From positions 15,953-30,783 of the forward strand of contig JAGDXH010000014.1 of the NCBI GenBank assembly GCA_023256295.1: a stretch of DNA of 14,831 nt. Reading direction: 5' to 3'. Under the pieces are notes generated by a model that had not been told where the DNA came from, ran no database searches, and was given only the letters and a program-made list of their open reading frames with translations. A program made the translations under genes and the position numbers. The stretch comes from Thermoproteati archaeon (lineage in GTDB: Archaea; Thermoproteota; Thermoprotei_A; Marsarchaeales; UBA168). The stretch's first letter is position 1. Every line of letters begins with the position of its first letter. Shown here piece after piece: positions 1,521 through 12,576 of this stretch.

Positions 1521-1605
1521 TGGGCCGGTCCGGATTTGAACCGGAACCTCTGCCGTGTAAGGGCGGCTTCAGGCTGAGTATCCTGCCGGGTTAGACCACA
1601 GGCCC
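1521..1605 (-). tRNA. tRNA-Val (anticodon TAC) with a probable 12-nt intron
   Basis: The minus strand gives acceptor GGGCCTG / CCGGCCC, D arm GTCT...GGAT, anticodon loop CTTACAC (anticodon TAC, reading GUA), T arm TCCGG-TTCAAAT-CCGGA, and A73; CCA is not encoded. The raw gene is 85 nt, 12 too long. Removing 1568-1579 (minus strand ACTCAGCCTGAA) leaves 73 nt. That intron sits between positions 25 and 26. CAGG before the 5' site pairs with CCTG in the intron, with bulges AT|A and AA|G and outer pairs CGG/CCG: a relaxed bulge-helix motif. Two mismatches remain in the mature form, T6-C67 and C28-A42. An alternative 12-nt excision (minus-strand CAGCCTGAAGCC) would give a perfect CTGCC/GGCAG anticodon stem but has no bulge-helix support. 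A TATA box (1625-1632) lies at the right distance upstream. Confidence 0.8.
1568..1579 (-). other. predicted non-canonical tRNA intron (position 25/26)
   Basis: This 12-nt segment is predicted to be removed from the pre-tRNA-Val by tRNA-splicing endonuclease. The supporting helix is CAGG (exon) with CCTG (intron), flanked by 3-nt bulges; there is no inner helix, as expected for so short an intron. The boundaries are inferred by folding only. Confidence 0.6.
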
Positions 1606-2902: not shown

Positions 2903-3156
2903 CTTTTACCACTGCACACTCCACCTGTTAGGGTGGGGATCTGGAGAAGCATATAAGCAAAGGGTTGCTTCGAGGGTGTTCCCTGAAAGACGAGGTCGGC
3001 CCGATGGCACAAGCGCGCGATCGCAACCCAAACGAGGCCGTGAATACCCCGTGCGTTGACGAGAGGTACGAGTGGGGTACATAAGCTCGTCGAAGTGGAT
3101 ATGATGACGCGCCGCGAAGGCCGCCGGAAACCCCAAGCCCCCGAAGGACGAGTAGT
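2903..3156. other. 254-bp intergenic segment rich in inverted repeats; possible RNA gene
   Basis: No convincing protein lies here; the longest minus frame (2906-3136) has no recognisable domain. Several complementary segments are visible: GGGTTGC (2962-2968) with GCAACCC (3023-3029), TACCCC (3045-3050) with GGGGTA (3074-3079), and CTCGTC (3086-3091) with GACGAG (present three times, at 2989, 3058 and near 3148). A TATA element at 2949-2958 faces in. I looked for RNase P conserved regions, an SRP helix 8 and tRNA arms and found none. It may be an unassigned structured RNA or only untranslated sequence. Confidence 0.35.
2949..2958. promoter_or_regulatory. near-symmetrical TATA element
   Basis: GCATATAAGC on the plus strand and GCTTATATGC on the minus strand. 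It can serve the leftward UDG gene (about 50 nt to its ATG) and could equally start a rightward transcript into the gene-free segment up to 3156. Confidence 0.4.
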
Positions 3157-11574: not shown

Positions 11575-11650
11575 TGGTGCGGCCGCCGGGATTTGAACCC
11601 GGGTCAGTGCCGTGGCAGGGCACCGTCCTACCAGGCTAGACTACGACCGC
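11575..11650 (-). tRNA. tRNA-Gly (anticodon GCC), CCA encoded
   Basis: Minus strand: acceptor GCGGTCG / CGGCCGC (one T-G pair), D arm GTCTAGCCTGGTAGGAC, anticodon arm GTGCC-CTGCCAC-GGCAC with anticodon GCC, T arm CCGGG-TTCAAAT-CCCGG, discriminator A and an encoded CCA (11575-11577). All stems pair and no intron is needed. It is convergent with the preceding membrane-protein gene. A TATA-like ACTTAATAG (11672-11680) sits about 22-30 nt upstream. Confidence 0.95.
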
Positions 11651-11835
11651 GCCGCTAGCAGCTTGGGTTGCCTATTAAGTTTTATGAAGATGGGCCCCAT
11701 CGCCAAAGGAAGTCGCTTGTCGTTGAAAACTGACGGCTTTATTCCTTTTGGCCTGATTCCAACGCATGGCGAATCGGCCTTGTCCATTGTCAAAAAGCTC
11801 TGGGCATCTCTAGAGCCAAAAGACGAGCCTTGACA
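11651..11835. other. 185-bp stretch without a supported gene
   Basis: A 49-codon plus-strand frame from ATG 11684 and a 71-codon minus frame cross here. Neither has a promoter at the right distance or a recognisable family. The tRNA-Gly promoter lies at the left end. Confidence 0.5.
11672..11680 (-). promoter_or_regulatory. TATA box of tRNA-Gly
   Basis: ACTTAATAG on the minus strand, at the correct distance from the tRNA 5' end at 11650. Confidence 0.5.
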
Positions 11836-11929
11836 AAGCGCTGATTGGCGGCGCACTGCACCTGCAATGGATCATCATCTTTTTTCAGCCCGCCCGTCTT
11901 AGCGGTGCGCTCACGCCCAGCGCTTCACC
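11836..11929 (-). ncRNA. candidate box C/D guide RNA embedded in a bulge-helix-bulge splice motif
   Basis: Minus strand, 5' to 3': outer helix AAGCGCTG (11925-11918) with CAGCGCTT (11843-11836); central helix GGCG (11917-11914) with CGCC (11850-11847); inner helix GCGCAC (11910-11905) with GTGCGC (11856-11851). The two 3-nt bulges are TGA (11913-11911) and AAT (11846-11844). This is a perfect 8-3-4-3-6 BHB in the orientation cut by tRNA-splicing endonuclease; cuts after the second bulge base would release 67 nt (11911-11845). Inside lie box D CTGA (11888-11885), a 6-nt spacer and box C ATGATGA (11878-11872). The guide before box D contains GACGGGCGG, complementary to 16S rRNA CCGCCCGUC; the D+5 rule points at C1402 (E. 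coli numbering). TATA-like GCTTAAAC (11957-11950) predicts a transcript start near 11929. RNA function is inferred, not shown. Confidence 0.65.
11845..11911 (-). other. predicted 67-nt excised (circular) segment
   Basis: Released by cutting both bulges. If its ends are joined, the inner helix GTGCGC/GCGCAC becomes a hairpin with loop CGCCAAA, and box C and box D lie on the opposite side next to each other, separated by AAAAAG, where they could form the kink-turn bound by L7Ae. Only a circle gives the boxes the usual C...guide...D order. Confidence 0.5.
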
Positions 11930-11949
11930 AAAAAGCTCGGACAGTAACC

Positions 11950-11957
11950 GTTTAAGC
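11950..11957. promoter_or_regulatory. bidirectional TATA element (UPF0201 gene and sRNA)
   Basis: GTTTAAGC on the plus strand, about 26-33 nt before ATG 11983; GCTTAAAC on the minus strand, about 21-28 nt before the predicted start of the small RNA at 11929. It is the same box sequence as that of rpiA. Confidence 0.5.
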
Positions 11958-11982
11958 TTCTCCCAAGTCTATCCCGACGTTG

Positions 11983-12576
11983 ATGATCGAGATCGCCGTC
12001 CCCATTCATCCATCTGAGGCAAGAGAGAAGGTGTTGCGCGCGATGGCAACGCTGGCCGACCCTGAGCTGCTCTCTGAAGAGGAAGGTGACTCGCTCATCA
12101 CCTTCAAAGCACATGATCTTAGAGCGCTCAAACCAATGAAGGAAACCCTGAAGAAGCAAATGACAAGAGCAGCAGCCCGCTCGGTCATGATGAAGGGCAT
12201 GAATGATGGAAGGCTGCAATTCAAGGTCCACAAGCAGGCCGCTTATGCACAAAGGGTGAGCTTTGTGACAGAGGAAAACGAATCCCCCCTTGGCCCGATA
12301 ACCGTGACCGTAACCGGAACAACCGATGAACTGAAATCTGCCTTGGAATATCTAACTGCCGGTGCCATGAGCAGGCAACGAGCCCCCAAGACCAAGCTCA
12401 AACAGCCTGCCAACCCCTCTTGCCAACTCTCTTGTCACTCTAAGCTGTTCCGGCACGCTGGACACCAAACACTGCCTCTCCAAAACACGAGTTGCGCGCG
12501 AAAGGTCTATCCCGCAGACCCGCGCGTATGCCCTCTCTCCATTCAAGGTGATAGGGACCAACTCGGATACGGATGA
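11983..12576 (+). CDS. UPF0201 family (DUF54) protein with long read-through tail
   Basis: Residues 1 to about 138 match the archaeal UPF0201 family, proposed from fold to bind RNA: EIAVPIHPSEAREKVLRAM at the start, an LRALKPMKETLKKQ helix, and the family hallmark HKQAAYAQRVSFV plus ENESPLGPITV. The family normally ends near AGAMSRQRAP; here the frame continues some 55-60 residues, rich in S, C, H and P, antisense to the end of the DUF99 gene (225 nt tail-to-tail overlap). The tail looks non-native. A start at ATG 11983 (TTG 11980 is also open) fits the TATA box at 11950-11957. No molecular function is established for the family. Confidence 0.85.
   Translation: MIEIAVPIHPSEAREKVLRAMATLADPELLSEEEGDSLITFKAHDLRALKPMKETLKKQMTRAAARSVMMKGMNDGRLQFKVHKQAAYAQRVSFVTEENESPLGPITVTVTGTTDELKSALEYLTAGAMSRQRAPKTKLKQPANPSCQLSCHSKLFRHAGHQTLPLQNTSCARKVYPADPRVCPLSIQGDRDQLGYG

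Follow-up and report, generated by a model that had tools for sequence, protein, structure and literature searches.

The window analysed here is the whole stretch of 14,831 nucleotides at positions 15,953 to 30,783 of contig JAGDXH010000014.1 (assembly GCA_023256295.1), from a Thermoproteati archaeon of the order Marsarchaeales, and our subject is a small-RNA element on its minus strand. At 11830–11931 a 67-nt insert on this strand is enclosed by a strict bulge-helix-bulge (BHB), in which a 4-bp central helix separates two correctly oriented 3-nt bulges, one on each strand, with further helices to either side (Table 1). The inner helix pairs GCGCAC (11905–11910) with GUGCGC (11851–11856) and, extended to 11902/11859, reaches 9 bp with one C-A mismatch. 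This orientation is that of the archaeal hBHBh′ splice site, the signal by which introns are normally removed from tRNA, and the predicted cuts were placed by the known BHB rule. An earlier note on this DNA had proposed that a C/D-type guide RNA is released from such a structure, and sequence geometry bore out the BHB on the minus strand and the 67-nt insert, as well as a TATA-like element at a fitting distance upstream; the outer helix does contain the eight Watson-Crick pairs described there, but it extends past the assigned start and end to 14 pairs when G-U is included. ARAGORN and an Rfam search of the window placed no tRNA over 11830–11931 (the nearest is a tRNA-Gly at 11575–11650), in line with the claim that no tRNA exon surrounds the BHB, and the element thus lacks the exons that characterize a tRNA-intron-encoded C/D RNA. 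The Rfam search of the window listed no family at the element at E≤5. A reading of the 3-nt bulge as a kink-turn was ruled out, since Watson-Crick pairs follow the bulge and there is no tandem G-A. We consider it probable that the element belongs to a derived C/D guide lineage that lost its terminal boxes, has its ends closed by the BHB stem, and is excised and circularised to target 16S C1402. In favour of this explanation are the sequence elements, the homology and covariation among relatives, the geometry of the bulges and the genes for the enzymes; excision, circularisation and methylation of the RNA are predicted steps within it.

When 60 relatives of the host genome (G000; 750,054 bases, 69% complete) were searched with the element, close copies came from two of the genus's three other genomes, and matches farther out were weaker. 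A core pattern matched 44 of 229 genomes of the class, with 0 matches of a reversed control in every row, and also 32 stretches of a named-genome collection, including Marsarchaeota G1 and G2, archaeon UBA168 and TACK group archaeon; the copies in those named records coincide with copies from host-order genomes. With a core model of sequence only (41 positions, built from 45 copies), 147 of the 229 genomes matched at E≤0.05, a cut at which chance alone should give about 11, and a hand count at E≤1e-4 gave 99; within this search the match in G003 was borderline (E 0.048) and G008 gave no core-model match. Several relatives (G163, G170, G172 and others) carry C, guide, D′ (CUGA), C′, second guide and D (CUGA), the canonical four-box order. 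Since these four-box relatives flank the core with C and D, the CUGA and AUGAUGA of the window are to be read as D′ and C′, and no permutation of the gene has occurred. D′ CUGA and C′ RUGAUGA are intact at kink-loop spacing in all eight copies from the host order, and the terminal C and D boxes that form the kink-turn are absent by eye from all eight. Because the terminal boxes are lacking, we call the element a derived homolog that would work like a C/D small RNA (sRNA), not a full member. On sequence comparison, it is a derived homolog of a class-wide box C/D guide RNA.

The C/D-type assignment in the earlier note was thus upheld, and two of its other statements were overturned. It had called the RNA single-guide, overlooking a second conserved antisense segment (CCAUUGCAG), and had read the gene as permuted, with C and D in reversed order and function only after circularisation. 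The window alone does show box D before box C, as does the gene of N. equitans sRNA24 (PMC3491384), a precedent in which the circle restores the order. However, sRNA24 is permuted, whereas the order in the element is the D′-C′ order of its relatives, with no rearrangement with respect to the four-box homologs, and we regard permutation as very improbable; the circle would still be topologically equivalent. Scanning 750,934 bases of the host, overlaps included, gave 15 matches to the D′-C′ pattern, one of them the element, and no match to the four-box pattern. Two family members, G409 (L192) and G424 (L206), have a long bulge-free closing stem and a different D′ guide (GGCGGGGUUUG) with the second segment unchanged, an apparent guide replacement within the family.

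Pairing in the closing stem was counted over a 13-pair core in the eight order copies, using alignment A2, which also served for a flank-including model, R1; the MAFFT alignment A3, in which gaps were misplaced in G005 and G007, was set aside. In this core 96.8% of cells pair and six of the 13 pairs changed on both sides, values reached in 0 of 500 shuffles, and sliding the partners by 1–3 columns left 19–59% paired with 0–1 doubly changed pairs. All eight copies have a 5′ bulge of 3 nt and a central helix of 4 bp. The outer helix is present in the host and, with five pairs each, in G004 and G006, and is lacking in the other five; covariation, which the earlier note had proposed as a check, was seen in the 13-pair core. 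As the alignment reads, the order copies have lost the terminal C/D boxes, and these are replaced by a BHB-like stem with compensatory changes. The complete set of BHB features was also found in G004 and G006 and, outside the order, in strict form in G012 and G014; it is incomplete in G001, G002, G005, G007 and G009.

The BHB is rare in the host genome. Scanning 700,818 bases on both strands for strict geometry with a combined inner and outer score returned two places at a score of at least 18, the element (18) and one G-U-rich place (19), and none in two dinucleotide shuffles of the host sequence, whose maximum was 17. The outer-helix run had p ~3e-5 against shuffled flanks.

Bulge geometry was then compared in 89 homologs: 40 from the 44 pattern-positive class genomes, 40 core-model places picked for spread among the matches listed, and nine found through R1. 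Counts refer to three score cuts, and a counted bulge adjoins a helix of at least 4 bp. A 5′-strand bulge of exactly 3 nt occurred in 24, 18 and 11 of the 89, as compared with 2.35, 0.4 and 0.05 for shuffled flanks; 5′-strand bulges of 1, 2, 4, 5 or 6 nt gave 6–9, 1–6 and 0–3, and 3′-strand bulges 3–9, 1–5 and 0–4. Without the nine homologs found through R1, four of which (G012, G014, G242 and G249) are among the 24, the 3-nt bulge was counted in 20, 15 and 9 of 80. Six of the 24 have an outer helix of at least four pairs at a 3-nt 3′ bulge (one of the six, G191, looks like chance), other offsets giving 0–1, and the bulges of the 24 are A-rich (76% and 75% A, as against 30% in the flanks). Individual rows among the 24 are weak: G191 (bulge CCC), G026 (UGG) and G028 (AUU) look like chance, and G119, G120, G146, G150 and G151 are each close to what chance would give. 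In G225 the helix runs on unbroken past the bulge, and G009, which has the 5′ bulge and the central helix, falls outside the 24 because its inner stem is interrupted.

A second C/D-like RNA, which carries the conserved guide AGCGGAUAA and lies nearby, downstream of the sRNA (L193, L194, L252, L253, L276 and others), served as a control. With its 3′ limit set at 38 nt, it showed no enrichment of the 3-nt bulge, found in one of 28 copies at the lowest cut and in none at the higher ones; most of the 28 come from genomes whose first RNA lacks the BHB too, and five (L193, L194, L252, L253 and L276) from genomes in which the first RNA shows it. No RNA of this type was seen next to the element in the host. 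These counts suggest that the BHB signal belongs to this RNA, as far as one control RNA goes, and the geometry recurs outside the order, more weakly. That the stem is a terminator hairpin, or arose from inverted repeats that flank an ordinary sRNA by chance, is scarcely credible in view of the covariation, the genome-wide rarity, the bulge-size preference and the negative control RNA; what would favour it is the folding energy, which is unremarkable (z −1.18, with 26 of 200 shuffles folding equally well). Since the folding energy is unimpressive, the case for the BHB rests on geometry and conservation.

Besides the folding energy, several results weigh against a BHB processed by cleavage. Further pair types in the order copies numbered 9 as compared with 9.4 in shuffles, 413 of 500 shuffles being as high, and one core pair is broken in three of the eight sequences. 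The outer helix is reduced to 0–1 pairs in G001, G002, G005, G007 and G009, which would be relaxed substrates at best, and in some of these copies the promoter, by eye, is so placed that transcription would begin at the central helix. At the lowest cut 65 of the 89 homologs lack a 3-nt bulge, and the most frequent closure is a plain stem with no bulge (32, 25 and 14 of 89, the classes overlapping). When both the R1 homologs and the order are removed, the 3-nt bulge falls to 13, 8 and 5 of 72, against 6–8, 0–5 and 0–3 for other sizes; in G011, G016 and G018 the 5′ bulge is present, but the outer stem runs through with no 3′ bulge, and the homologs are related, so that the bulge counts are not independent events.

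Some of these results would suit a linear C/D sRNA in which a bulged clamp, a simple closing helix, stands in for the terminal kink-turn, with the bulge left uncleaved, the ends trimmed by exonucleases and any circle closed by the ligase Rnl. The outer helix is missing in five of the eight order copies, plain unbulged stems close many homologs (G409 and G424 for example), and Rnl circularises T. kodakarensis C/D sRNAs with paired termini (PMC9014305). However, a clamp leaves unexplained the favoured 3-nt size on the 5′ strand, the A-rich bulge at a 4-bp helix and the outer helix set at 3 nt, and we judge this explanation unlikely, though worth keeping in view. Excision from the BHB, which we prefer, could also draw on relaxed structures, as relaxed BHBs are removed efficiently by (αβ)2 and ε2 endonucleases (PMC6379350).

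With respect to the target, the D′ guide GACGGGCGG is complementary to 16S 1399–1407 (numbered from an E. coli 16S gene), and the D+5 rule would select C1402, a base of the ribosome's decoding centre, as the earlier note had predicted. That note had also suggested a look at the host 16S; no 16S was found in the host assembly, and the five order genomes with an archaeal 16S all carry the C1402 site, ACACACCGCCCGUCGC. Spacing to C1402 is kept in the order copies. The 16S stretches L088 and L089 of G006 read as bacterial (GUGCUACAAUGG) in an archaeal bin and are likely contamination. The bacterial RsmI model TIGR00096 matched none of 10 order genomes, so that an RsmI-type protein enzyme is not an obvious alternative for C1402. 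A 2024 table that records 2′-O-methylation of C1402 in bacteria and in eukaryotes has an empty cell for the archaeon, H. marismortui (PMC11542601), and a 2008 table has no Haloferax entry at this position (PMC2584109). A survey of seven archaea calls helix 44 predictions sparse, and '1402' and '1388' to '1390' are absent from its main text, supplement lists lying outside this scope (PMC4644070); since positions in the survey follow a separate numbering (1395 there corresponds to E. coli 1408), these absences are weak evidence only. The element points to a predicted guide RNA for 2′-O-methylation of archaeal 16S C1402.

The second segment, CCAUUGCAG, pairs with 16S 1234–1242; in four-box relatives it would select position 1236, and it is retained in the order copies, which lack its D box. 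Of the 44 pattern-positive genomes, all except G000 were searched with a 16S probe, which matched 20 of these 43. A guide C stands opposite a 16S G (CUGCAAUGG) in the five genomes of the order that have an archaeal 16S, and all 15 other matching genomes have A (CUACAAUGG), with U in the 14 guides read (all but that of G034). The second-segment pairing thus covaries between the order and the other probed genomes; C is also found in the second guide of copies outside the order (for example G182, G184, G022 and G420), beyond the 16S sequences compared here. A further possibility is an rRNA folding scaffold that holds 16S 1234–1242 and 1399–1407 at once and guides no methylation, which would be compatible with either mode of release. 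Consistent with a scaffold, the second segment persists in copies that have lost its D box, both antisense segments stay in G012 and G014, whose D′ and C′ are degenerate, and chaperone roles have been proposed for dual guides (PMC4644070). In contrast, D′ and C′ are intact in all eight order copies with their spacing to C1402 kept, and we hold a scaffold without guiding to be improbable.

The enzymes called for by excision, closure and methylation are encoded in the order, most of whose 10 genomes are incomplete: a fibrillarin gene is present in all 10, the endonuclease family PF01974 in eight, and RtcB in six, including the host. Two PF01974 proteins are encoded in the host, which fits a heteromeric splicing endonuclease without proving it. 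Under the explanation that we favour, the element would be a derived member of a widespread lineage of archaeal C/D guide RNAs whose D′ guide selects C1402 and whose second segment pairs with 16S 1234–1242. The host and its order would have given up the terminal C/D boxes, with a BHB stem, strict in the host and relaxed in some relatives, closing the ends instead. A short transcript would fold into the BHB, tRNA-splicing endonuclease would cut both bulges, and RtcB would seal the 67-nt insert into a circle. L7Ae, Nop5 and fibrillarin may then assemble on the sole remaining D′-C′ kink-loop and methylate C1402, while the second segment may help to hold the two rRNA regions together. A broader proposal is that of an 'intron without exons', a guide RNA gene common to several archaeal families whose sole product would be a circle excised at the BHB and closed by RtcB; circularisation would here have replaced the kink-turn of the terminal C/D boxes, so that a minimal guide for C1402 with one kink-loop remained. 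We lowered our confidence in it from even to slightly below even because the BHB signal is weaker outside the window's order.

Like archaeal double-guide box C/D sRNAs, the element has D′ and C′, a guide upstream of D′, a D+5 target and a homologous core, and its host has a fibrillarin gene; it differs in that a BHB stem replaces the terminal C/D and only one kink-loop remains. The pre-tRNA-Trp intron of Haloferax and Pyrococcus (PMC7994747, PMC7714728) likewise holds a C/D guide inside a BHB and is released by splicing endonuclease, as is predicted for the element, but its BHB is part of a tRNA, on which the guide acts, whereas the element has no tRNA exon and a predicted 16S target. The permuted circular signal recognition particle (SRP) RNA of Thermoproteus (PMC4731332) shares the stand-alone non-coding RNA, the BHB formed by leader and trailer, and the upstream TATA box; the SRP RNA is truly permuted and its endonuclease cleavage is demonstrated, whereas cleavage of the element is predicted. 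Circular C/D sRNAs are described from Pyrococcus, Thermococcus and Methanopyrus (PMC7994747, PMC9014305, PMC3695527), and the circle predicted here would join such guides; those of T. kodakarensis are closed by Rnl and not by RtcB (PMC9014305), the ligase that we propose for the element. Archaeal circular RNAs are also reported in PMC12558985, and endonuclease substrates are treated in PMC7714728. The route by which archaeal C/D sRNAs circularise has been described as unclear, their termini usually lacking canonical BHBs (PMC7994747). Among the titles, abstracts and passages listed by the searches, supplements lying outside this scope, we found no prior report of a stand-alone BHB-enclosed C/D sRNA. 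The element offers a case in which the sequence by itself predicts the enzyme, both cut sites and the junction.

Table 1. Features of the element and its promoter, listed in the direction of predicted transcription
Feature	Position	Strand	Basis or remark
TATA-like element GCTTAAAC	11950–11957	−	Read directly; centre 22–25 nt upstream of 11931–11929 (foot of outer helix), the predicted start site
Outer helix, 5′ strand	11918–11931	−	8 Watson-Crick pairs at the bulge, 14 pairs including G-U
Central 4-bp helix, 5′ strand GGCG	11914–11917	−	Covariation in relatives
5′ bulge UGA	11911–11913	−	Predicted cut between 11912 and 11911, by the BHB rule
67-nt insert	11845–11911	−	Putative product; predicted release and end-to-end joining
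Inner stem, 5′ strand	11902–11910	−	Occupies the position of the terminal C box of relatives
D′ guide GACGGGCGG	11890–11898	−	Complements 16S CCGCCCGUC (E. coli 1399–1407); fifth base before box D′ is 11893, opposite C1402
Box D′ CUGA	11885–11888	−	Homology to D′ of relatives
D′-C′ spacer AAAAAG	11879–11884	−	Sequence
Box C′ AUGAUGA	11872–11878	−	Homology to C′ of relatives
Second antisense segment CCAUUGCAG	11862–11870	−	Complements 16S CUGCAAUGG (E. coli 1234–1242)
Inner stem, 3′ strand	11851–11859	−	Pairs with 11902–11910
Central 4-bp helix, 3′ strand CGCC	11847–11850	−	Pairs with 11914–11917
3′ bulge AAU	11844–11846	−	Predicted cut between 11845 and 11844
Outer helix, 3′ strand	11830–11843	−	Pairs with 11918–11931

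Downstream of the element, the same strand carries the tRNA-Gly gene (anticodon GCC). A tRNA-like sequence also follows the sRNA in G004, G006 and G009, and the sRNA closely follows an apparent tRNA 3′ end in G011, G012, G016 and G018 (f4, f5) and in G210 and G214 (f9). In the host, a PF01877 RNA-binding gene (11980–12576, plus strand) is divergent from the sRNA; in G002 (L060) what appears by eye to be the same gene is codirectional with it, suggesting a local inversion. Elsewhere in the window, 2921–3015 (plus strand) gave a sub-threshold Rfam match to group-II-D1D4-3 (26.6 bits, gathering 32), which is probably due to chance. A tRNA-Val-like gene at 1521–1605 (minus strand; anticodon UAC by eye) scored 35.7 bits with Rfam and was missed by ARAGORN. 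Its D-arm is followed by about 10 extra bases ahead of the anticodon stem, which points to a small intron of non-canonical type; if true, this would be another relaxed BHB substrate in the host genome.
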